Positions 7,806-22,093 of a stretch of DNA of 22,180 bases are shown piece after piece; position 1 is the stretch's first letter; the number at the start of each line of letters is the position of its first letter. Origin of the DNA: a virus; the IMG/VR virus record IMGVR_UViG_3300003322_000651, positions 5,500-27,679 of that record; one strand, written 5' to 3'. The position numbers and the translations under genes are program-made. A model generated the notes under the pieces. That model saw only the letters and a list, made by a program, of their open reading frames with translations, had not been told where the DNA came from and did no database searches.

Positions 7806-7997
7806 ATGGTGTCATCCCGCGGAGGCCGCTACGGCTTCGTATTCCGCAGCAGGCACGACGCATATAGAGCCCTGCGCAAGAAGGGCGCCAGCAAGACCAA
7901 GGCCGCCCGCATCGCGAACGCAGGCCGGACCCACGCCCAACGCAGCGCCATGGCACGCAAGGCCAGCCGCACCCGCAAGATGCGCGGAGGCCGCTGA
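7806..7997 (+). CDS. Small basic protein with SKxKAARIANAG motif
   Basis: The product is 63 residues and very basic, beginning MVSSRGGRYGFVFRSRHDAY and ending ARKASRTRKMRGGR. It contains the motif SKTKAARIANAG, which I have seen in small actinobacterial and phage proteins of unknown function that contain KAARIANA-type helices. It has no signal peptide or membrane segment. The stop overlaps the tailspike start (TGATG), so the two are probably co-translated. The SD is weak. A nucleic-acid-binding or structural role is possible but not shown. Confidence 0.7.
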   Translation: MVSSRGGRYGFVFRSRHDAYRALRKKGASKTKAARIANAGRTHAQRSAMARKASRTRKMRGGR

Positions 7998-10927
7998 TGC
8001 CGCTCCCCGTCGGCGTCGACGCCGTCACCCTCAACGCCGGCACCAACGGGCTGCGCGCCCCCGACGGCACCGCCTGCACGGGTACGGTGACGGTCACTCC
8101 GTCCGTGACCAGGGTCGTGTCCGAGGAGCATGGACTGATCGTGCTCGGCTCCTCCAACGCCACCCTCGGCGCCTCGGGCATGTTCACCCTCGGTCCTGTC
8201 CTCGCCACCGACGCCGACGGCTTCACGCCCACCGGCTGGACCTACCGGGTCGACGAGAACTTCACCGGGCATCCGCCCCGCTCCTACAACGTCAGCCTGC
8301 CCGCCACCACCCCGACCGTGGCACTGCCGGATCTGGTCGAGGTCAGCACGTCCGACGGCACCGTTGTGCTCCATCCGCCCGGCGGCGGCACCCCGTCGGC
8401 CACGGTGGTGTCGGAGACCGGCTTCGGGCAGGCGGCCACTGCGGGCGTAGCTACGGCCTACTCGCGCGGCGACCACACCCACGGCACACCCGCCCTCCCC
8501 CCGACCGGCACGACGGCCGGCACTTACGCGGCGGGTAACGACTCCCGGTTGTCGGACGCTCGCACGCCGACGGCGCACGCCGCATCGCATGGCACCGGCG
8601 GGAGCGACCCTGTGACGCCGGCCGCGATCGGTGCCGAACCGTCCGGCACTGCGGCCTCTGCGGTGACCACGCACACGGGGGCAACTGACCCGCACGGCGA
8701 CCGGGCTTACGCGAACAGCACCTTCGCCACCCAGTCCACTGTGTCCACGATCGACGGCTACCTCAACGACGCCCTGAACCGATTGCAGGCGATCGAGCAG
8801 GGCACCGCCTACCTCGCGGGCGGGCACTTCACCGGCCCGGTCGACATGACCAGCTCCCTCACCGTCGGCGGCTACACCACCCTCCAAGGCGGTCAGTTCA
8901 ACGGGGACTTCGCCGCGTTCGGCGATATGACCTTGTACGGCACGAACAAGGGGTTCCGGTTCCGGCGCGGCGGATCAGCCACCGACTTCGAGGGCGCCGG
9001 CACTGACTTGCTGGTGTCCGTGTGGTCGGGCGGTGACTTCTCGGGCACGCAGCACTCGTATCTGCGGCTCAGCGCGGACGCCCAGAACGCGCAGTTGGCC
9101 GGGCCGCTGGAGGTTGTGAGTTCGCTGTATGGCGGCGCGGTCCACAAGCTCGACCCGACGACGGGTGTGGCCGGGCTCGGCGGCAAGAACGCCCTGAGCA
9201 ACATCCGCGCGTCCGGGCGGCTGGCCACGACGGGCGCGCCGACGTCGGGCACGTGGACGGCCGGGGACACGGTGCAGGACGCGGCCGGCGCATGGTGGCT
9301 ATGCACGGTCGGGGGTACGCCTGGCACGTGGTCGGGTGGGGCGCAGTCGTGGGTGTTCGATGTGACGGCCTACGGGGCGAAGGGTGACGGGCAGGTCGTC
9401 GCGGACGGGGCGATGGCGTCCGGGTCGGCGACGCTCACGAGCGCTACTGCCGGGTTCACGGCGGCGGATGTCGGCAAGGCCATCTCTGTGAAGGGCGCTG
9501 CGGCCACTGGCGTGACCACGCTGGTCACGACGATCTCGGCTTACGTGTCCGCCACTCAGGTCACCCTGGCCGCCTCGAATGCGTCTGGTGGCGCGGTGTC
9601 GGGGGCGATCGTCATCTGGGGCACCGACGACACGACGGCGATCCAAGCCGCAGTGGATGCCGCGGAGGCGTACCTGTCAGGCGGACGCACCTACGCACAG
9701 GTCTACTTCCCTCCGCGGGCGCCGTACATCGCCGCCGGAGCCCTGAACACCAGCAAGAGCGGCAACGGTCAGATCGTCTTCGGCGTCTACTCGACCACCG
9801 CCACCAAGAAGATCCTGGAGTTCCGCGGCGCGACCGACGGCGCCGCAGCCGTCCGGCACTGGCAGCAGACCGTCCCGCAGTACGCCGGATCATGCATCAT
9901 CAGCCTCGGCGTGTTCGCGTCGACAGCCGCACAGATCAGCTCCATCAACGCCGCAGGCAACCCAGGCGTGATCTGCGGCCCGAACGAGGGCGCCGGGTAC
10001 GGGGCGGGCGCGGTGTACTCCAACGTGCAGGCCGTCATCCGCAACCTGGCGATCCTCACCACGCACTCCGCCTACGGCCTCACCTACGGGGCCGCCAACC
10101 TGTATGGCGTCGCCAACTGCCATGTCGAGAACTTCGGGTACGGCACGGCGGGCGTGGTGCCGGGCAGCGACTACTCCAGTCCGGGCACGTTCGGCACGGG
10201 CCTGTCGATCGGGCTGTTGTTGCCGGCGCCGGGCAACAACGATCACGTCGTCGCGAACAACATCAGCTGCGGAGGCGGCTACACCTACGCGGCCTTCGTG
10301 ACCGAGCACCTGATGATGACCCGCTACATGGCCCTCTACTGCTGGGCCGGGCTGGTCGCGGTGGGCAACTACTTCGGGAGCGTCGGCTCCGTCCACGCCA
10401 TGAAGGTGATCGGCGCCAGCATCGAGGCCTGCATCAACGAGCTGTACATCCTCGGCGTCGGCTCGGCGGGCATCGGACCGATCATCGACATCGACCAGCT
10501 GTCGACGGAGAGCAGCACCCCGAACATCGGCGGGCAGGCCACGCACATGGCCGCGGCCCGGGGCATCGTCCGCTGGACGGGCCTGTTCACCGAGTCTGGG
10601 CTGACGCACGACAATCCGTGCGGCATCGAGTCGATCAACGCGCAGGCCGTCAGCGCCGTCCGCGCGGTCACCGCGTCGACGACGGCGCGGCCGATCGACC
10701 GGGTCATCAAGGCCGACGCAACCACCGGCGGCGTCACGGTGTCCCTGCCGTCAGCGGCGCCGAACCCGGTCATCTACACGATCATCAAGTCGGACGCATC
10801 GGGCAACACCGTCACCGTCGATCCGGCCGGCTCGGAGACCATCAACGGCTCGGCCACCCGGGTGCTGTCCTCGCAGTGGGACACGCTCACTGTCAGGTCC
10901 GACGGCGCCAACTGGCTCGCCATCTAG
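7997..10927 (+). CDS. Tailspike / tail fibre with pectate-lyase-like beta-helix
   Basis: The product is 976 residues with GGAGG about seven bases before its ATG. Residues 1-130 are a beta-rich attachment domain. Residues 155-213 carry tail-fibre collar motifs: YSRGDHTHGTP and HAASHGTGGSDPVTPAAIG. A short helix (250-268) is followed by a glycine-rich region. At 454-465 FDVTAYGAKGDG, with TDDTTAIQAAVDAA at 543-556, is the canonical entry of pectate-lyase-3 parallel beta-helices, which in tailspikes bind or cleave host surface polysaccharide. The C-terminal domain (about 890-976, ending SDGANWLAI) resembles trimerisation caps. It is transcribed away from the head genes, so it probably has its own promoter. 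Substrate and enzymatic activity cannot be read from sequence. Confidence 0.88.
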   Translation: MPLPVGVDAVTLNAGTNGLRAPDGTACTGTVTVTPSVTRVVSEEHGLIVLGSSNATLGASGMFTLGPVLATDADGFTPTGWTYRVDENFTGHPPRSYNVSLPATTPTVALPDLVEVSTSDGTVVLHPPGGGTPSATVVSETGFGQAATAGVATAYSRGDHTHGTPALPPTGTTAGTYAAGNDSRLSDARTPTAHAASHGTGGSDPVTPAAIGAEPSGTAASAVTTHTGATDPHGDRAYANSTFATQSTVSTIDGYLNDALNRLQAIEQGTAYLAGGHFTGPVDMTSSLTVGGYTTLQGGQFNGDFAAFGDMTLYGTNKGFRFRRGGSATDFEGAGTDLLVSVWSGGDFSGTQHSYLRLSADAQNAQLAGPLEVVSSLYGGAVHKLDPTTGVAGLGGKNALSNIRASGRLATTGAPTSGTWTAGDTVQDAAGAWWLCTVGGTPGTWSGGAQSWVFDVTAYGAKGDGQVVADGAMASGSATLTSATAGFTAADVGKAISVKGAAATGVTTLVTTISAYVSATQVTLAASNASGGAVSGAIVIWGTDDTTAIQAAVDAAEAYLSGGRTYAQVYFPPRAPYIAAGALNTSKSGNGQIVFGVYSTTATKKILEFRGATDGAAAVRHWQQTVPQYAGSCIISLGVFASTAAQISSINAAGNPGVICGPNEGAGYGAGAVYSNVQAVIRNLAILTTHSAYGLTYGAANLYGVANCHVENFGYGTAGVVPGSDYSSPGTFGTGLSIGLLLPAPGNNDHVVANNISCGGGYTYAAFVTEHLMMTRYMALYCWAGLVAVGNYFGSVGSVHAMKVIGASIEACINELYILGVGSAGIGPIIDIDQLSTESSTPNIGGQATHMAAARGIVRWTGLFTESGLTHDNPCGIESINAQAVSAVRAVTASTTARPIDRVIKADATTGGVTVSLPSAAPNPVIYTIIKSDASGNTVTVDPAGSETINGSATRVLSSQWDTLTVRSDGANWLAI

Positions 10928-10936
10928 GAGACGTTC

Positions 10937-11167
10937 ATGCCCGTCCGCTGCCCCGAGGCCGACACCCTCGACGTCCACGGCGATCCGCTCCCGCTTCAGT
11001 GCGTGATCTGGAGCGACGACCCCGACGGCCGGCACGTGGGCGAACATCTCGTGCACACGCCGCCGTCATTGGGCGACGACCACACGTGGGCCAACGGGAA
11101 CCCGCTGTCCGAGCAGGAGGCGGCCGACTTGGTAGCGAGGGGCTTGCATCCAGGCACTGCTGCCTGA
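10937..11167 (+). CDS. Small acidic protein of unknown function
   Basis: The product is 76 residues starting MPVRCPEADTLDVHGDPLPL, with GGAG six bases before the ATG and nine bases after the tailspike stop, so it belongs to the same transcript. It is rich in Asp, His and Pro and has two cysteines. It has no membrane segment. It ends just before two strong hairpins. Small genes after tailspikes can encode chaperones or tip proteins, but nothing here shows this. Confidence 0.65.
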   Translation: MPVRCPEADTLDVHGDPLPLQCVIWSDDPDGRHVGEHLVHTPPSLGDDHTWANGNPLSEQEAADLVARGLHPGTAA

Positions 11168-11170
11168 CGA

Positions 11171-11195
11171 GACCTTCCCGGGTGACGGGAGGGTC
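11171..11195 (+). terminator. First hairpin closing the tailspike operon
   Basis: GACCTTCCCG (11171-11180) pairs with CGGGAGGGTC (11186-11195) as a 10-bp stem with one G-U pair and a 5-nt GGTGA loop. It starts three bases after the stop of the rightward gene and precedes the second hairpin. Confidence 0.75.
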
Positions 11196-11231
11196 GATGC
11201 CCTCGGAGGACGTGGCACTCCGGGGGCATCG
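11195..11231. terminator. Bidirectional hairpin between convergent genes
   Basis: CGATGCCC-T-CGGAG (11195-11208) pairs with CTCCG-G-GGGCATCG (11218-11231), a 14-bp stem with one wobble pair and a 9-nt loop. It separates the rightward tailspike operon from the leftward lipoprotein gene and could stop transcription from both sides. There is no U-tract. Confidence 0.75.
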
Positions 11232-11243
11232 GCACGTGGTGGG

Positions 11244-11687
11244 TCAGAAGTTGGCGTTGGCGATCATCTTGCCGTCTTCGCCGTACACGGTGACCAGGCC
11301 GTTGTCGGACTCGTAGCAGGACGTGAACGCGGTCGCGATGAGCTTGGCGTCGCCCTGATGGGAGCTCATGAGGCCGCCCTTGTAGTCGGTGTACACCTCG
11401 ACGGAGTCGAGGATGTTGTTCTGCTTGTCGGCGCCGGTGACCTTGGTGACGTGCTTGACGGCCTTCTGTTCGGTGGCGGTGCCGGTCTTGTTGACGCAGG
11501 CGGTGAACTCCTCGGCCTGGGTCTTCTTCGGCTTGCTGTCGGCGTCCTTGGCGTTGGTGTCGCCGGCTTGCTGGGCGCTGTCGGTGCCTGCTTTGGTGCC
11601 GCCCTTGTCGTCGTTCATGGCTGCGTTGCAGCCGCCGATGGCGATGATGCCGACGACGATTCCGCCGATGATCTTACCTTTGGCCAT
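11244..11687 (-). CDS. Lipoprotein candidate (possible moron)
   Basis: The product is 147 residues, starting MAKGKIIGGIVVGIIAIGGC. This is a short charged N-region, a hydrophobic core and a lipobox IGGC with Cys 20 as the lipidation site. A Lys/Asp/Thr-rich linker follows to about residue 62, then a folded domain with EFTACVNKTGTATEQKAVKH, VEVYTDYKGGL, a second Cys in TSCYESDNG and the end VYGEDGKMIANANF. The two late cysteines could form a disulphide outside the cell. GGGGGA precedes the start. Hairpins on both sides make it an independent unit, as for phage morons; some phage lipoproteins block superinfection, but that role is inference. I recall similar sequences in Streptomyces chromosomes. 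Confidence 0.75.
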   Translation of the reverse strand: MAKGKIIGGIVVGIIAIGGCNAAMNDDKGGTKAGTDSAQQAGDTNAKDADSKPKKTQAEEFTACVNKTGTATEQKAVKHVTKVTGADKQNNILDSVEVYTDYKGGLMSSHQGDAKLIATAFTSCYESDNGLVTVYGEDGKMIANANF

Positions 11688-11802
11688 GGTTCCCCCTGGT
11701 GTGGTGCGGGTTGCTGTGGTGCGTGAGCGTATGGGGGTTGGGGTGGGGGTGTGGGGGTTGTGACGAGCCTGTGACCGGATCGAGTGAGCCCGGGCACGGC
11801 GG

Positions 11803-11833
11803 AGGCCCACTTCCGGGCGGCGGGGGTGGGCCT
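11803..11833 (-). terminator. Hairpin downstream of the small zinc-binding gene
   Basis: AGGCCCAC (11803-11810) and GTGGGCCT (11826-11833) form a perfect 8-bp stem with a 15-nt G-rich loop. It lies in the 172-base gap between the stop at 11860 and the lipoprotein start, and would insulate the lipoprotein gene from upstream leftward transcription. The rest of the gap is C-rich on the coding strand; I see no clear promoter in it. Confidence 0.6.
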
Positions 11834-11859
11834 TCTGCTGTACGGGGTCAGGCGTCGGG

Positions 11860-12057
11860 TCAGAAGCCGCCGCCGGGGAACGTCGGCTGGTGGTGGCGCT
11901 CGACGTGGTCGCGCATGTACGACCGGAGGCGCTTGGCCTCCTCGTCTTCGCAGCCCCGGAAGCGGACTTGGGCGGGGCAGCGGGGGCAGCGGATGCGCTC
12001 GTAGCCGCCGAGGATGTCGGTGATGCGGTCGATGGTCTGCCGGATGGCGGTGGCCAC
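11860..12057 (-). CDS. Small putative zinc-finger protein
   Basis: The product is 65 residues starting (GTG) VATAIRQTIDRITDILGGYE, with AGGAG seven bases upstream. The middle has CPRCP and a later Cys (FRGCEDEEAKR), then DHVERHHQPTFPGGGF. The Cys-x2-Cys with downstream Cys/His could hold one zinc. The rest is helical and charged. No function is recognised. It is the last gene of a leftward run of small genes that ends at a hairpin. Confidence 0.65.
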   Translation of the reverse strand: MATAIRQTIDRITDILGGYERIRCPRCPAQVRFRGCEDEEAKRLRSYMRDHVERHHQPTFPGGGF

Positions 12058-15066: not shown

Positions 15067-15501
15067 CTACATGGTCACCTCGTTCTTCCCGAAACGGGCG
15101 TGCTGGTGGACTTCCTGACGGATATGCACCGTCGTCCGGCCACGCGACCCGAACGCCAACAGCAGACCGATCAGGAGCGCCAGACCCGACGTGCCCATGA
15201 GCGCGGCGCCGGCGAACATCTGGCCCACGCCGTACCCGAGCCCTGCCCCGGCCGCTCCGATTCCGACACCGCCCGCGATGAGGCGCTGAGCCACGGGGTC
15301 GAGGAGCGGCTGAGGGGTGAGGTCGCGGACCGGCATCGGCTGCACGGGGGCCGGCGCCTGCGACTTGCGCATGGGCACCATCTGCCCGTAGGCGTCCGGC
15401 ACGTAGACGATCGGGTCCCGCTCAGCGTACAGCTCGACGGGCTGCGGCTGCCCGGCGGCCGGGCTCGCGTACTGCTGGTACCGCTCAGGCAGGGCGGACA
15501 T
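15067..15501 (-). CDS. Two-pass membrane protein, possible Spd-like transfer protein
   Basis: The product is 144 residues starting MSALPERYQQYASPAAGQPQ. The N-terminal half is Pro/Gln-rich and includes DPIVYVPDAYGQMVPMR. Residues about 73-118 are hydrophobic and glycine-rich and form two membrane segments (AGGVGIGAAGAGLGYGVG and LMGTSGLALLIGLLLAFG). A short basic, His-containing tail follows (TTVHIRQEVHQHARFGKNEV). It lies 11 bases after the translocase stop on the same transcript. Small membrane proteins next to tra in Streptomyces plasmids (Spd proteins) help spread DNA within the recipient mycelium. That assignment is by context only. Confidence 0.65.
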   Translation of the reverse strand: MSALPERYQQYASPAAGQPQPVELYAERDPIVYVPDAYGQMVPMRKSQAPAPVQPMPVRDLTPQPLLDPVAQRLIAGGVGIGAAGAGLGYGVGQMFAGAALMGTSGLALLIGLLLAFGSRGRTTVHIRQEVHQHARFGKNEVTM

Positions 15502-15512
15502 GGCGGCCTTTC

Positions 15513-17603
15513 TCAGGACTGGTCGGGGCGCACGGCGTAGCGGCCGTACTTGGGCTTGTGCACACGCGAGTCCTCGCCGAGCCAGCGGCCGATCGTCGCG
15601 GCGTGCGGGGTCTCGTAGCCGTGCGGCTTGAAGAACCGCTCGAAGATCTCCTGGACGGCCGCCGGGCCGATCCCGTCCTCGCCTGCCTTCGCGACGATCC
15701 CGAACACCATCTCCCTGCGGGGATCGGCGTCATCACCCTGCTGGACCGTCGGCGGCGGCTCGACGGCGGGAGGCTTCCAGGTGACTCCGCCCCCAGCGAG
15801 GATGTCGAGGAACTGGGCGTCCAGGTCGTCGTCCCGGGAGCTGGTCTCCTTCATCGCGTCGTGCAGACGGCGGCGGGCAGCCTCTGCCTGGTCGATGACG
15901 TCCTGCGCGTCGCCGCCGGCCGGAGTGGTTCCCCAGCCGTCGGTGACACCGGTGCCGCGCGTTTGCGGTGCGGGCGCCTCCCGCTCCTCCGTGATGGTGG
16001 GGGTGGGTCCGATGCCGAAGAGGTGGTCGGTGTTCATCCACCGCTGCTCATACGCCTCGCCCGCGGCCTTGCGGGACAGCTCGTCGAGCTCGGGATGCCG
16101 GTCGGCGGTCGCCTTCACGATGTCGAGGATCTGGTCCGGCTTCAGCCGGTAGATCTTCACCGGGTGGACCTGGCCCTCGCCGTCCTGGATGAGCGCGCAC
16201 CCCGGGTAGGGGGCGTCCTCGGCGGACGCGCCGTGGTTGTAGCCGAACAGGTAGTTCAGCTCGGCGTCGTGGGCGACCTTCATCCCGGCCTTGTAGGTGG
16301 ACTGCTTCAGCACCTGCGGGTCGGACAGCACGTCCTGGGTGGCGCGCAGCCCGGACGTGGTCTCGTTCACCGCGGCGGCGCGGGCGATCTCCAGGGTCTG
16401 GATGAGGTCGTCGCCGATCGCTCGGAGGATCTCCTGGCGGCGGGAGCGGGTGGAGAAGATCTCCGCGCCCTCGTCGTTGAACACCCGGATCTCCGGCACC
16501 TCGTGGTCGACGGGCAGCTTGTCGTCGTTCGCGGCGATCTCCCGGTCCTGGTAGCCGACCTTGCGGGCCTTCGCGATCCGCACCAGCGCCGCGGCCATCG
16601 CGCGCGCCTTCTCCGGGGTGTCCGCCACCCAGTCGATCGGCGGCCTGCCGGGACGGCCCGCAGTGTGCCAGGCGCGCATCCACTTCAGGGCGAGGCCGCC
16701 GCCGTTGAGGTCGATCGCCCACGAGATCGAGTCGGTCATGCGGCAGTTGTTGGCGACCTGCACGTGCATCAGGTTCGACTTGCCGGATCCGCGCTGCCCG
16801 ACGATCAGCATGGACGCCTGCCGGTGGACCGGCCCCTCCGGCGTGCCGTCGCGGCGCACCCCGACCGGGGCCGGAGCGTTCACGGTGAGCGGCGAGTAGT
16901 CGGCCGGGTAGTCGACGTCGTCGACGAGCCGGTTGACGGTGGTGACGTGGATGAGGACCGCGCCGCGGTGCGCACCGGGTTCGACCTCCACCCCGCAGCC
17001 CTCGGCGAGTTTCGCGTCCGCAGCGAGCTGCTCCTTGTAGGTGGCGATGTCCTTCCACCGGGTGCCACCCGCTCCGCACTCGCCGTCGAGGCTGAACCCG
17101 CCGCCGGACGGCCACTGTTCGACACCGACGATCTGCACGACGGTGCCGTGGCAGACGCGGACGATGCGGTCCTCCCACTCGTCTGCGATCTGCTTGCGCT
17201 TACCGTCGAGGGTGGCGCGGCGGGCCGCGGCCTCCTGCTCGGCGCGCTCTTCTGCGGCGGCGGTCTCGACGTGGTGGGCGCCGGCCATGGCGGCGCCGAG
17301 GCCGAGGGCGCCGATGAGGAGACTGCCGATCCCCCACTGGGACCACGGCCCGTTGACGATGGCCCACGAGCACCAGCCGCCCGCCGCAAGCCAGCCTGCG
17401 GCGCGCAGGGTGAGGGTGGCGGTGGTGACGTTGGCGCGGCGGCCGGCGAGGTGCGTGCCGACGGCTCCGGCTCCGGCGGCGAGTGCGGCCCACTCCCACG
17501 GCATGGTGGTGGCGTGTCCGGCGTAGCCGACGGCGAGGGCGGCGAGGCCGGTGTTGATGGGGCCGGTGACGGGGCCGTGCTTGGCGTCCCAGTCGAGGTT
17601 CAC
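15513..17603 (-). CDS. FtsK/TraB-type membrane DNA translocase
   Basis: The product is 696 residues from GTG 17603 (VNLDWDAKHG), with GGAG seven bases upstream. Frame continuity beyond this is a shadow of the preceding gene. Residues about 18-110 hold three to four membrane segments. A charged helical linker (112-145) follows. The motor has Walker A GQRGSGKS at 269-276 and a Walker B-like RVFNDEGAE at 373-381. Residues 629-690 (EMVFGIVAKAGEDGIGPAAV to KPKYGRYAV) look like a winged helix. This order matches Streptomyces conjugation proteins (TraB/TraSA), hexameric pumps that move double-stranded DNA and read short repeats through the winged helix. FtsK itself is longer. Membrane-protein neighbours support a transfer module; a cell-division or packaging-related FtsK role remains possible. 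Confidence 0.85.
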   Translation of the reverse strand: MNLDWDAKHGPVTGPINTGLAALAVGYAGHATTMPWEWAALAAGAGAVGTHLAGRRANVTTATLTLRAAGWLAAGGWCSWAIVNGPWSQWGIGSLLIGALGLGAAMAGAHHVETAAAEERAEQEAAARRATLDGKRKQIADEWEDRIVRVCHGTVVQIVGVEQWPSGGGFSLDGECGAGGTRWKDIATYKEQLAADAKLAEGCGVEVEPGAHRGAVLIHVTTVNRLVDDVDYPADYSPLTVNAPAPVGVRRDGTPEGPVHRQASMLIVGQRGSGKSNLMHVQVANNCRMTDSISWAIDLNGGGLALKWMRAWHTAGRPGRPPIDWVADTPEKARAMAAALVRIAKARKVGYQDREIAANDDKLPVDHEVPEIRVFNDEGAEIFSTRSRRQEILRAIGDDLIQTLEIARAAAVNETTSGLRATQDVLSDPQVLKQSTYKAGMKVAHDAELNYLFGYNHGASAEDAPYPGCALIQDGEGQVHPVKIYRLKPDQILDIVKATADRHPELDELSRKAAGEAYEQRWMNTDHLFGIGPTPTITEEREAPAPQTRGTGVTDGWGTTPAGGDAQDVIDQAEAARRRLHDAMKETSSRDDDLDAQFLDILAGGGVTWKPPAVEPPPTVQQGDDADPRREMVFGIVAKAGEDGIGPAAVQEIFERFFKPHGYETPHAATIGRWLGEDSRVHKPKYGRYAVRPDQS

Positions 17604-17623
17604 AACGTGCTCCAGGTCGAGGG

Positions 17624-18988
17624 TTAGAGGTTGGCGGAGACGTCCCACATGCGCTCGCCGGCGACGCCCTTGCGGGGGTTCTCCAGGCGGGCGATGTCGA
17701 CGTCGTGCAGGGATCGGAACGCGGGCTGCAGTTCGGTGGCGAGTTCGGCGGCCTTGAGTTGCAGGGCGTGGATCTGCCGCATGATCTCGACGATGTTCGG
17801 GTGCAGCGGCTGGTGGGCGTCCGCGTTCTCCACCGTGACCTTCATGGCCTCGGCGTGCAGGCGCAGCGCCTCCTCCAGTCCGGCGAAGTCCTGGCCGACT
17901 TGCAGCATGCCTTGCGGCTGATAGTTCGCGGCGGCGCGGGCGGCTTCCATTGCGGGGGCGACGAAGTGGTGTCCTCCACCGGACATGGCGGGTCCTCCAG
18001 TTGTGGTTGCGGGGATGGGTGAGGTGGGCCGGCGGACGGTGTCCGCTACTGGCGGTTCGGTTGGGGGGCCGGTCTGCTTGCGGCGGTCCCGGCGGCGGCG
18101 CCATACGGCGAGGAGCCGGTCGAGTCCGGCGCGGCCGCCGCGGCGCAGCGCCGTCCACGCTCCGGCGAGAAGCGCGGACAGTCCGTCGCGTGCGGCGCCG
18201 GCGGCATGCCGGAGTCCACGGCCGATGGCCCTTACGCCGCGGCCTGCCCACTGGCGGGCCTGTGTGGCTGCCGCGCGGGTGGCTCGTGCTGCGGCGGCGC
18301 GCACGGTCTGCGCGGCGCGGCGGACGGGTCCGGGAGTCTGCTCGCGGTCCTTCTGCCTGCGGTCGCGGTCGCGCGGGGAGCGGTTGCGTTCGGGCTTCCG
18401 GCGGCGCAGGCCGCTACCCCCGGACCCGTTGCTGCGATGGCGGTGCGCTCCACCACTCCCGCCGCTACCCGGGCGCCCGCTACCGCCACGGCCGGGCGCC
18501 ATGCCGCCGCTACGCAGCAAGCTGCCACGCGTAGCGCCACCGCCACGACCGCCCGACCCGCTACGCCTGAGCCCGCTACCGCCGCCCGCACCGGGCGCTA
18601 CGCGGCCGCTACTGCCACGCAGTTGGGCCGACGACGTGCCGCTACCCGCTCGGGCCGCGACGCTACGCTCCACCGCCGCCCGCCGCCGTAGCGCCGCAGC
18701 GGTGACACCGGCCGCGATGACGACACCCGTAGCGGCGGCCGCATACGGGCCGCCGACACGGTAGGCGGTGGTGATGGTGAGCGCGGACGTGTTCCCGGTG
18801 GCGGCGAGGACGGGGGCCATGGGCAGGCCGCGGGCCGGCCTCTGCTTCGCGGCGGGCGGCTCGGGGATGGGCCACTCGGAAGGCCAGGCCAGCACCGGGG
18901 ACGGGCGTGCCACGTCCTGTGCGGGCTGATCCGGGGGCGGTGCGGGGGGTGCCGGTGTCTCGGGGGTCGGCGTCTTGGTGCGGGCCAC
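17624..18988 (-). CDS. Membrane protein with Gly/Arg-rich region, upstream of the translocase
   Basis: The frame is open for 454 residues from GTG 18988 (VARTKTPTPETPAPPAPP), which has GAAGGAGAGG upstream. A Pro-rich start leads to a hydrophobic pair of segments at about 75-120 (TAYRVGGPYAAAATGVVIAA). Next come a Gly/Ser/Arg region (about 125-225), basic Ala-rich amphipathic helices and a final soluble domain of 120 residues beginning MSGGGHHFVAPAMEAARAAA. That domain has its own ATG (17986) with GGAGGA seven bases upstream, so it may also, or only, be made separately. It ends in ARLENPRKGVAGERMWDVSA, 20 bases before the translocase start. Function unknown; a partner of the translocase is likely by position. 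The Gly/Arg region carries the GTAGCG repeat cluster. Confidence 0.65.
   Translation of the reverse strand: MARTKTPTPETPAPPAPPPDQPAQDVARPSPVLAWPSEWPIPEPPAAKQRPARGLPMAPVLAATGNTSALTITTAYRVGGPYAAAATGVVIAAGVTAAALRRRAAVERSVAARAGSGTSSAQLRGSSGRVAPGAGGGSGLRRSGSGGRGGGATRGSLLRSGGMAPGRGGSGRPGSGGSGGAHRHRSNGSGGSGLRRRKPERNRSPRDRDRRQKDREQTPGPVRRAAQTVRAAAARATRAAATQARQWAGRGVRAIGRGLRHAAGAARDGLSALLAGAWTALRRGGRAGLDRLLAVWRRRRDRRKQTGPPTEPPVADTVRRPTSPIPATTTGGPAMSGGGHHFVAPAMEAARAAANYQPQGMLQVGQDFAGLEEALRLHAEAMKVTVENADAHQPLHPNIVEIMRQIHALQLKAAELATELQPAFRSLHDVDIARLENPRKGVAGERMWDVSANL
18412..18734. repeat. Dense cluster of GTAGCG/CGCTAC hexamers (clt-like candidate)
   Basis: Thirteen copies lie in 323 bases, starting at 18412, 18463, 18478, 18508, 18531, 18559, 18574, 18596, 18607, 18640, 18661, 18688 and 18729. 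Ten read GTAGCG on the minus strand; those at 18531, 18688 and 18729 are inverted. Most extend to GTAGCGG or GTAGCGC. An isolated copy lies at 18044. The copies encode different residues (Gly-Ser, Arg-Ser, Val-Ala, Ala-Thr, Ala-Leu) in more than one frame, so protein sequence alone does not explain them. Confidence 0.8.
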
Positions 18989-19004
18989 GGGCGGCCTCTC
19001 CTTC

Positions 19005-19102
19005 ACTGTGACTGGAACTGTGACTGCAGTCCTGCCGGGCGGGTGCGGGGGTTTGCGCTGTTCAGGGGGTGGATCGCGGTGTGACTGCAGTTGGACTGCA
19101 GT
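19005..19102. promoter_or_regulatory. Operator-like repeats upstream of the Gly/Arg-rich membrane gene
   Basis: The 8-bp palindrome ACTGCAGT occurs at 19023-19030, 19084-19091 and 19095-19102, the last two 11 bases apart (one helical turn). ACTGTGACT is repeated at 19005-19013 and 19017-19025, the second running into the first palindrome. These fill the 125-base gap before the start at 18988, one repeat lying just upstream of the SD. Repressor control of the transfer genes at this point is likely; no obvious -10 box was recognised. Confidence 0.6.
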
Positions 19103-19113
19103 CGCGGTGGGAG

Positions 19114-20091
19114 TCAGGCGGCGCGCGGGCCGGGCAGGCGTGGGTTCTCGGCTTCGACTTGGCGGCGGATCTTCCCGGCCTGCGCGCGGGAGTTGGGTAG
19201 GCCAGCGGCGCCGAGGGCTTCGACGACCGCGCCTTCGGTGGGGCGGTGGCCGAGGTGCAGCCACAGGGCGCGGACGACGTAGTGGGGGGTGCCGGGTTCG
19301 TAGCAGGGCACGCCCGGGTCGGTGGTGGCGTCGAGCGTGGCGGTGGCGTCCTCGGCGGCCGTTGTAGCGGCGTGCGCGGTCGCGGTGGTGCGTGGCGGCT
19401 TGGGTGTAGCGGGTGGTGGCGCTACAGCCTGTCGGGGTGTGGCGGCGGGAAGCTCGGTGGCGCTACTGAGCATGGCGGCGAGCGCCGTGTTGGCGCCGTC
19501 GACGATGCGGGTGTTCTGTACGTCGGTCAGTGCGCTACCGAGGGTGGCGTCGTGGTGGCCGAGCTTGGCCATGAGCCGCCACGCCACGAGCTCCGATACT
19601 CGGCGCACCCACTTCCAGGGGTGGCGTTCGGCGCGCGCCCGGTGGTAGGCGATCTTGCGGAGGATGGCGGCGTTGCGGCGTTGCGCTTCGACGTCGATGC
19701 CGGTGCGGTGCACGACGATCCGGCGGGCGAGGAAGCTGGTGCCCTCCGCGGAGGCGGTCATGGCGAGCGGGGTCAGGGCGAAGACGACGGCCTCGGTGCC
19801 GGTCGGTGCGATCGCCAGGCCCATCACGGAGGCGGTGGCGGGCAGCAGCCACAGTGCGGCGCGGATGGCGAGGGGGGCGGCCTGGCCGAGCATGGTGACG
19901 CCGATCATGACGATGGCTGCGACGAGGGTGGCGCCTTCGCCGGCGGCGACGACGCCGAGGGCTGTCTCCTTGCGGTGCAGGACGCTGGCGGCGTTGGCGT
20001 AGGTGCCGATGGCGCCGCCGATTCCGACGGTGATCATCGGGATGGTGGCGATGGCGAGGACGGCGATCTGCCCGCCGGTGAGCTTCTTCAC
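19114..20091 (-). CDS. Multi-pass membrane protein with C-terminal helical domain, Spd-like
   Basis: The product is 325 residues from GTG 20091 (VKKLTGGQIAVLAIATIPMI) with GGAG upstream. Residues 7-145 contain about four membrane segments (PMITVGIGGAIGTYANAA, GATLVAAIVMIGVTMLGQ, APLAIRAALWLLPATASVMG, EAVVFALTPLAMTA). A basic cytoplasmic helix follows (HRTGIDVEAQRRNAAILRKI) and AERHPWKWVRR. A Pro/Thr/Ala linker leads to a C-terminal domain (about 265-325) with RPTEGAVVEALGAAGLPNSR and KIRRQVEAENPR, resembling a helix-turn-helix. I recall similar membrane proteins in Streptomyces integrative elements annotated as transfer or DUF2637-like proteins. It probably works with the translocase. Five GTAGCG motifs lie in its linker-coding part. 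Confidence 0.7.
   Translation of the reverse strand: MKKLTGGQIAVLAIATIPMITVGIGGAIGTYANAASVLHRKETALGVVAAGEGATLVAAIVMIGVTMLGQAAPLAIRAALWLLPATASVMGLAIAPTGTEAVVFALTPLAMTASAEGTSFLARRIVVHRTGIDVEAQRRNAAILRKIAYHRARAERHPWKWVRRVSELVAWRLMAKLGHHDATLGSALTDVQNTRIVDGANTALAAMLSSATELPAATPRQAVAPPPATPKPPRTTATAHAATTAAEDATATLDATTDPGVPCYEPGTPHYVVRALWLHLGHRPTEGAVVEALGAAGLPNSRAQAGKIRRQVEAENPRLPGPRAA
19364..19538. repeat. Second group of GTAGCG/CGCTAC hexamers
   Basis: Copies start at 19364 and 19406 (GTAGCG on plus) and at 19420, 19461 and 19533 (GTAGCG on minus): five in 175 bases. In the coded protein they use unusual codons for this DNA (ACA Thr, GTA Val, AGT Ser, GGT Gly). They appear to belong to the same motif family as the denser cluster downstream. 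Confidence 0.65.
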
Positions 20092-20114
20092 GGTGACGGC
20101 TCCGTGGGTGGGGG

Positions 20115-20327
20115 CTAGTTGTGGCGCCAGGCGATGACGGCGAGGGCGCCGGCGAAGAGGGCGGCGAGGGCGAGGTCTGCGTAGAGGGCGGCGATGGCGG
20201 CGAGGGTGAAGCCCCAGCGGGTGACGGGCAGGCAGAGGGTGTTGAGGAGGGGGGACTTGGCGCGGAGGCGTTGGCGTCGGCGTTTGCATGTGGGGCAGGG
20301 GGCGCGGTGTGTGGTGGTGCGCGCCAT
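20115..20327 (-). CDS. Small membrane protein with N-terminal CxxC
   Basis: The product is 70 residues starting MARTTTHRAPCPTCKRRRQR with GGAAGG before the ATG. CPTC at 11-14 is followed by a basic stretch and then two hydrophobic segments (about 37-67: TLAAIAALYADLALAALFAGALAVIAW). It could hold zinc as a dimer through the CxxC. It is the first gene after a strong hairpin and lies 23 bases before the next membrane-protein gene, so it probably starts the transfer-like block. Confidence 0.65.
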   Translation of the reverse strand: MARTTTHRAPCPTCKRRRQRLRAKSPLLNTLCLPVTRWGFTLAAIAALYADLALAALFAGALAVIAWRHN

Positions 20328-21106: not shown

Positions 21107-22093
21107 TTATCGGTTGGCGTGCACCTTCTGGGTGTGGTGTTGGCCGACGTGGCCCAGTGGGCGATCGCAGGCGTTGCCACCACCGCTCACGTGTCCGCAG
21201 GACCCGACGCGCGCCAGTTCCGTGGCCCGCTTCTTGGCCGCAAGGCGACGGTTGGACTCTCGCTTGCACTCGCGACACGACAGGTGTCCGCGCGCGTTGG
21301 TGATGGAGTTCGCGTCGTCATAGGCGTGGCCTGCTGGACAGTGGCTAGGCCGTTGACGGGGCGTGCTACCGCCATGCTTCCTGGCCCACCGCTCCCGGTC
21401 GCACTCTCGGCAGGCCATGCCTTGACGACCAGCGTTGGCGCCGTCGTACGCATGGCCGTTCGGACAGTGCGTTCTGTTGCGCACGGCCTGCTTACTGATG
21501 TCTAGGTGCGTCGGGTAGGCGGCGAGCTCGGGTTCCTTTGCCTCGATGCGGCGGCGCGCGGCCAGAGCCGTCGCGGGAGTGCTGCCGATTCCGGCCGTGC
21601 TCATCGCGCGCAGCACATTGGAGATCGTCGGGCGCAGCGCGAGTTGGCCGTAGAGCGGCCTTACGACAGCGTCGATTTCTTCTTTGGTGGCTCGACGCCT
21701 CCCTGCTTCGGCCACCTCTCCCCGCCTGACGTTCTCGGCGAACGTAACGGCTTCCAGGTGGGCCGGGTTCGAGCATGCGCGGTTGCGGCAAAGGTGATCG
21801 AGGACAAGGCCGTCAGGAATGGGGCCGCGCGCAACGAGGTAGGCGAAACGGTGGGACCGCAGCTTGGCGTGGCGGAAGTTGAACCTTCCGTAGCCGCAGC
21901 CCGAAAGGGTGCTGGTCCAGACCCAGCAGTCCCCTTCCATGACGATCTTCGCCTCGAATCGGGCGATGTCGCCGTCCGTGACTTGGATCTCCTGGCCGTC
22001 GTTCAGGCGGATCTTCGGTAGTGGGGCCAGGCAAAGCGGCGCGATGAGGGTGCAGTTTGTTGGCGATCCGCCGATAACATTCGGCAAGGTCAT
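21107..22093 (-). CDS. HNH endonuclease with C-terminal zinc ribbons
   Basis: The product is 328 residues from ATG 22093, which overlaps the end of an upstream frame (ATGA); AGGA lies four bases upstream. After a 50-residue N-terminus comes the HNH_3 type nuclease: GDCWVWTSTLSGCGYGRF (54-71), HRFAYLVARGPIPDGLVLDH (81-100) and LCRNRACSNPAHLEAVT (101-117), with catalytic His 100 and the Cys pair. A helical linker (133-190) leads to two near-identical modules, CPNGHAYDGANA...CRECDRE and CPAGHAYDDANS...CRECKRE, likely zinc-binding and DNA-reading. A last Cys/His tail follows. This is the plan of free-standing homing nucleases of actinophages. Target site unknown. Confidence 0.85.
   Translation of the reverse strand: MTLPNVIGGSPTNCTLIAPLCLAPLPKIRLNDGQEIQVTDGDIARFEAKIVMEGDCWVWTSTLSGCGYGRFNFRHAKLRSHRFAYLVARGPIPDGLVLDHLCRNRACSNPAHLEAVTFAENVRRGEVAEAGRRRATKEEIDAVVRPLYGQLALRPTISNVLRAMSTAGIGSTPATALAARRRIEAKEPELAAYPTHLDISKQAVRNRTHCPNGHAYDGANAGRQGMACRECDRERWARKHGGSTPRQRPSHCPAGHAYDDANSITNARGHLSCRECKRESNRRLAAKKRATELARVGSCGHVSGGGNACDRPLGHVGQHHTQKVHANR

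Follow-up and report, generated by a model that had tools for sequence, protein, structure and literature searches.

The locus analysed here raises the question whether a tailed phage may own a DNA-transfer module of the kind carried by actinobacterial plasmids and integrative elements, and how such a module would serve it. The window—the whole stretch of 22,180 nucleotides under study—covers bases 5500-27679 of a 27,679-base IMG/VR record, itself a 27.7-kb fragment. A head and packaging cassette occupies positions 1142..7722 of the minus strand, with genes for the major capsid protein (1142-2335; PF05065, 3e-11), a Mu-F-type head protein (3066-4070), the portal (4070-5614; phrog_104, 4e-55), TerL (5682-7211; phrog_2, 2e-36) and a TerS-like protein (7192-7722), all on that strand. 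The original prediction had placed a phage packaging and capsid cassette about 8 kb from the module; it is there, about 7.3 kb separating TerS from the module. The order is that of the minus-strand head and packaging cassette, then a plus-strand gene of 976 aa with small genes, then the module, which is transcribed from the minus strand in the order 70-aa protein, 325-aa protein, middle gene, 696-aa translocase and 144-aa protein.

The translocase (15513..17603, minus strand) is of the FtsK/HerA type and is built of an N-terminal helical membrane domain, an alpha-beta motor and a C-terminal winged helix. Membrane segments, Walker A/B motifs and a winged-helix-like end had been announced for this protein of 696 residues, and their coordinates hold: four helices span residues 13-150, Walker A is GQRGSGKS, Walker B ends in the invariant D377-E378 and the winged helix covers about residues 629-691. 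In a Foldseek search with an AlphaFold2 model (pLDDT 82) built from 22 homologues, the window's and viral ones, the best structural matches were FtsK on dsDNA (6t8b, 2e-14) and TcpA (6o1w, 3e-13), the coupling protein of pCW3 conjugation. The RecA-like alpha-beta motor, the invariant Walker residues and the match to the FtsK structure place the protein in the FtsK/SpoIIIE/HerA fold. Among PHROGs it matches phrog_31069 (FtsK/SpoIIIE-like) at E=2e-84; together with the synteny of the module in independent contigs and in one isolate genome, this match indicates that the module is not there by chance.

The family to which the protein belongs within this fold is a distinct matter. Pfam and NCBIfam gave nothing above cut-off for the window translocase, PF01580 (FtsK_SpoIIIE) giving no match in the Pfam profile search, and NF041214, the model of canonical plasmid TraB, matched neither the window protein nor G000-G003. 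On the other hand, an hhalign comparison of the translocase profile with canonical TraB aligned the membrane domain and the motor (prob 97.8, E 1e-12). Translocase and TraB thus have a common ancestry, yet the translocase lies outside TraB by the family model, and canonical TraB membership is ruled out. The tra/spd match first proposed does not stand if canonical TraB/TraSA is meant, to which the link is this remote homology only. No FtsK gamma domain was matched in the window record, G001, G002 or G003. In a tree of 58 translocases, host FtsK and TraB stand apart, host FtsK forming a fully supported group whose branch measures 4.35 changes per column; the suggested check that the window protein might group with housekeeping FtsK was run on this tree and no such grouping appeared. 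The translocase is a third family, neither housekeeping FtsK nor canonical TraB. Its top PDB sequence match is the T7SS ATPase YukB. Type VII secretion EccC/EssC, characterised by tandem ATPase domains and ESX partners, was rejected as a candidate: the model has one motor domain, and FtsK and TcpA fit better than EccC.

At 77-82% identity the module recurs in four IMG/VR contigs and in a prophage integrated in S. caniscabiei, with the same order in G001, G002 and G003 and partly in G004. Relatives at 31-65% identity are found in many other phages, including Hiyaa, and in Hiyaa and P1312 the module is located within complete phage genomes. Scans of IMG/VR with the translocase alignment gave 23 loci (31-81% identity); the NBC_01177 protein, run against viral contigs, added nothing new. 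The synteny in contigs and in the isolate prophage bears out the central idea of the original prediction, i.e. that a conjugation-type dsDNA-translocation module of the plasmid/AICE kind truly lies within tailed-phage genomes. In the tree the window is one member of a supported group made up of 22 phage proteins, among them those of Hiyaa and of the circular replicon NZ_CP108596, which carries virion genes; 18 proteins of AICE type group separately (100/100), and plasmids and other phages lie in between. At least two changes between phage and non-phage carriers are forced by well-supported branches, the long branches leaving the deeper order unsure.

As for the lifestyles of the carriers, among 22 viral records, many of them fragments, three have a serine integrase and eight match a tyrosine integrase, of which seven exceed the cut-off; both kinds are present in a single record, and ParA occurs in two of these 22. 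The phages of the Hiyaa group have no integrase or ParA match, ParA gave no match in G001-G004, and no exact terminal repeats were found in G000-G004. With a circular replicon, ParA-bearing records and phages lacking integrase and ParA matches among its carriers, the module is independent of the plasmid state. Since the Hiyaa clade is without such matches, a role restricted to lysogeny cannot be general: in this group the module would have to act during infection. The term "phage-plasmid hybrid", first applied to the window phage, finds no support for this phage: the record is a 27.7-kb fragment, and the nearest relative whose flanks can be seen is a prophage integrated in the chromosome. The S. 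caniscabiei prophage measures about 73.5 kb and has inserted into a gene of the Mg-chelatase family (yifB-like), with positions 1-64 of the ChlI profile on its left and 65-119 on its right. Its sequence (L031:2721-4617 and L034:16579-17949) also shows a serine recombinase at the left end and the yifB/ComM-like gene split at a shared TTCGACCT core.

The middle gene (17624..18988, minus strand), left undescribed in the original prediction and uncertain in its start (a GTG at 18988 has a ribosome-binding site), encodes a Gly/Ser/Arg-rich product with a hydrophobic segment near the N-terminal third. Its C-terminal part is a helical-hairpin domain of 120 aa (17624..17986, minus strand; A3 alignment, AF2 pLDDT 87), which may also begin internally as a separate ORF and bears the invariant signature H-x2-D-x2-R-x3-P-R...E-x2-W. 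In all phage, plasmid and chromosomal loci searched, the A3 HMM matches the ORF immediately upstream of the translocase, so that the co-occurrence of the two is obligate. The domain has no Pfam, PHROGs or NCBIfam match above cut-off, its hairpin fold has no significant structural match, and it is previously undescribed. Two candidates were tried and rejected: a WXG100-like fold, for which EsxA came up only at a non-significant E of about 3, and homology to SCP2 TraB or to the SCP2 Gly-rich protein, the matches to which were not significant either.

Membrane proteins had been predicted on either side of the translocase, and are found there. Downstream, the 144-aa protein (15067..15501, minus strand) has one C-terminal hydrophobic segment by hydropathy; homologues 48-55% identical to it occupy the corresponding position in G001, G002, G003 and G004 as well as in the S. 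caniscabiei prophage. Upstream lie a DUF2637/Spd-like protein of 325 aa with three hydrophobic segments (19114..20091, minus strand; phrog_16651, 2e-58) and a 70-aa protein with a single one by hydropathy (20115..20327, minus strand), which the S. caniscabiei prophage matches with a counterpart of 69% identity. The A4 alignment links the 325-aa protein with DUF2637 proteins, and a protein of this type is present upstream in most loci, not all.

Inside the middle gene lies a putative cis-acting, clt-like docking locus (18411..18645, minus strand) made of eight copies of [CG]GTAGCGG in the same orientation, one of them with A at the first position; a ninth GTAGCGG copy is at 18043-18049. These nine GTAGCGG compare with 0.95 expected from synonymous-codon shuffles of the gene (p<=0.0003). 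The p-value of the k-mer scan was not accepted alone because control genes inflate it: five of 38 also reach p<=0.01 in this unguided scan. The case for the repeats rests on shared motifs, a single genome peak and covariation. In two relatives of ~70 kb, G001 and G002, the cluster is the sole peak of the genome, with 7 and 9 copies per 400 bp respectively against 2 for the next, and related phages have the same motif in 7-12 copies at other spacings. In the window the repeats sit in a Gly/Ser-rich coding stretch, most copies being in one frame; the sequence differs immediately outside the core of 7-8 bp, and the spacing is irregular.

Other phages display, in the same gene, arrays of CGTGGCG, CGGGGCG, TGGTTCG, GGTCCGG or CGGACCA, and the motif changes with the recognition helix of the translocase: PHAATIGRWL pairs with GTAGCGG, GTGGCGG, CGTGGCG or CGGGGCG, PSRxxVTTWL with GGTTC motifs, and the translocases of the Hiyaa group with GGTCCGG. 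Motif similarity still tracks recognition-helix identity after correction for motor identity (partial Mantel r=0.44, p=0.0004) in 20 phages, this list and the alignment window of the helix being our own choice. TraB assembles at clt on 8-bp TRS repeats (PMC4170104), which are read by helix 3 of its winged helix (PMC3583192). The covariation is the behaviour expected of a clt/TRS-type site, and by this analogy we regard the array as a putative docking site. The array in the middle gene and its covariation with the translocase helix are new here. No significant repeat cluster was detected in the middle gene of several phages and of most AICEs. In the middle gene of L057 (4970-5147), copies of the repeat CCGGACCA are spread over all three reading frames (8-mer, 8 copies; 7-mer CGGACCA, 19 copies).

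The same translocase family is present in 31 of 150 Streptomyces species genomes. Most of the 20 loci inspected are AICE-like, and the translocase stands in such a setting in 18 chromosomal loci. Annotated examples bring together GntR, the family translocase, Prim-Pol (PF09250), RepAM (PF12307), a Xis-like HTH and a tyrosine integrase, that is, the modules defining AICEs (PMC3218068). At the 17 chromosomal loci searched, the family translocase had no TraB homologue within about 10 kb; near AICE-like chromosomal elements, and likewise on small actinobacterial plasmids, no FtsK-type translocase other than this family was found. Between the window and the AICEs L106 and L112, the DUF2637-like protein is 58-59% identical whereas the translocases are about 39% identical, so parts have passed between AICEs and phages. 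The module of the window is itself no AICE, defined by Int, Rep and Tra without virion genes, as the genome around it is that of a phage and has terminase, portal and capsid genes. On the S. mobaraensis plasmid pDSM40587 the module is found together with a TraB-type protein (NF041214, 5e-129, below the strict cut-off of the model). In the S. uncialis plasmid (L041:19584-22037), the family translocase has a C-terminal FtsK gamma domain (PF09397, 1.4e-16). Five AICE translocases tested against PF01580 scored 12.9-23.9 bits for a cut-off of 24; the AICE-like class L101-L117, just under this cut-off, would escape surveys requiring PF01580, which was a criterion in the 2011 AICE survey.

Among named systems, the Streptomyces plasmid-phage pZL12 (NC_013420) resembles the window in that homologues of the translocase and of the middle gene, pZL12-71 and -72, are adjacent in a phage genome; pZL12-71, the sole translocase match in pZL12, is about 24-26% identical to that of the window. 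It differs in being a circular plasmid prophage with ParA/ParB. No matching repeat cluster was found in pZL12, and CGGGGCG, tried as its docking repeat, gave no peak. According to a passage of PMC3583192, the conjugal transfer of pZL12 as a plasmid requires a major tra gene and two adjacent genes; by elimination, we infer these to be genes 71-73. With canonical TraB/TraSA (NF041214; pSVH1, pSAM2) the window family shares the membrane domain, the FtsK-type motor, the C-terminal winged helix, short lineage-specific repeats as docking site (putative in the window) and membrane partners nearby. Unlike them, it has no NF041214 match, is separate in the tree, is accompanied by an obligate extra middle protein, and has its predicted docking repeats inside the upstream gene. 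The AICE-like elements L101-L117 of Streptomyces (Prim-Pol/RepAM) have the same translocase family, the middle gene and often the upstream DUF2637-like gene, but no virion genes are seen nearby, their translocases form a separate clade (100/100) and they are mostly without a significant repeat cluster in the middle gene. The transfer region of SCP2 (L146:16318-24778) has a similar order: the DUF2637-type SCP2.27c, which matches A4 at 6e-48, a Gly-rich protein, a small helical TraB, a membrane TraX and the motor TraA. However, its motor and helical proteins are not detectably of the same families by HMM, and hhalign gave an E of 1e-5 in the P-loop region only for SCP2 TraA and nothing reliable for SCP2 TraB; possibly this region is a split, very diverged version of the cassette. 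Finally, the moron annotated as phrog_31069 "FtsK/SpoIIIE-like" in the Streptomyces phages Hiyaa and Galactica belongs to the same phage family and has the same neighbours as in the window, but the annotation concerns the translocase only, partners and repeats being absent from it.

We consider it probable that the module is a phage-carried transfer cassette of the actinobacterial plasmid/AICE type, i.e. a sequence-specific dsDNA pump which moves the phage genome without virions. The translocase would sit in the membrane and bind, through its winged helix, the 8-bp repeats of the adjoining middle gene as a docking locus of the clt/TRS type; hexamerising at these repeats, it would form a pore and drive the phage genome, as a circular double-stranded molecule, across the membrane. 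The DUF2637-like protein and the small membrane proteins might be Spd-like partners, and the conserved C-terminal domain of the middle protein a required adaptor. In this way phage DNA would move between hyphae, and past the cross-walls within the mycelium, without virions. A wider reading is possible, and put forward more tentatively: a long-lived clade of Streptomyces phages, temperate as well as apparently virulent, may own a conjugation system, in which a non-canonical TraB-like pump and a docking site in the coding sequence of its partner gene co-evolve, and with it a second, particle-free route between or along hyphae.

The pump could also be confined to one mycelium, where it would spread replicating phage DNA through cross-walls in the course of infection, or clear prophage DNA into spores, never moving it between colonies. 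This would agree with the presence of the module in Hiyaa-type phages without detected integrase or ParA, with the existence of separate spread functions in Streptomyces plasmids (PMC4170104) and with the action of FtsK and SpoIIIE at septa. However, the single oriented cluster of repeats resembles a loading site and not genome-wide polar sequences, and near AICE-like elements no translocase outside this family was found; we hold such a confinement for rather unlikely. Clearly less credible is a reading in which codon-level slippage or amplification within a Gly-Ser linker produced the repeats as a by-product and the translocase has an unrelated role (such as a genome entry step, replication or T7SS-like protein export). 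The flanks which differ outside the core of 7-8 bp, the irregular spacing, the L057 copies in all three frames and the covariation of the motif with the recognition helix all argue against slippage, even if most copies of the window share one frame and some control genes also depart from the shuffle null. Protein export could be suggested by YukB, the best PDB sequence match, and by the helical hairpin of the middle domain; but the structure of the translocase is closest to FtsK and TcpA, and the hairpin is without significant fold match. The capture by a phage of a housekeeping-type FtsK, aiding the resolution of chromosome or prophage dimers, is highly improbable: the fold is the same and the S. 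uncialis plasmid relative carries a gamma domain, but the separate, fully supported host FtsK group on its long branch and the absence of a gamma match in the window record and in G001, G002 and G003 lead to its rejection, and the recognition motif varies between phages. As for a misassembly joining a separate AICE or plasmid to a phage, a concern raised from the start, nothing was found in its favour and it is refuted by synteny, the same order being found in the independent contigs G001, G002 and G003 and in the isolate prophage, and the module lying inside the complete genomes of Hiyaa and P1312.

If the module is indeed a transfer cassette, phage DNA in filamentous actinobacteria would travel by conjugation-type pumping besides virions, which would change the view of host range, resistance and lysogeny in mycelia, and pZL12 would become one instance of a wider pattern. 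The results further indicate a class of AICEs with a transfer protein that scores slightly under the PF01580 cut-off. In the cultivable phages Hiyaa, Galactica, Keanu and Spocter, the docking sequences predicted here and the recognition helices allow direct and cheap tests.

Some genes around the module can be mentioned besides. In the interval between TerS and the module, the 976-aa gene (7997-10927, plus strand) has a weak match to phage "pectin lyase" / tail-fibre profiles; in L047 a large gene of 827 aa (9510-11993) comes after the module. Upstream of the module, the window also encodes an HNH endonuclease of 328 aa (21107-22093, minus strand; PF13392, phrog_826).
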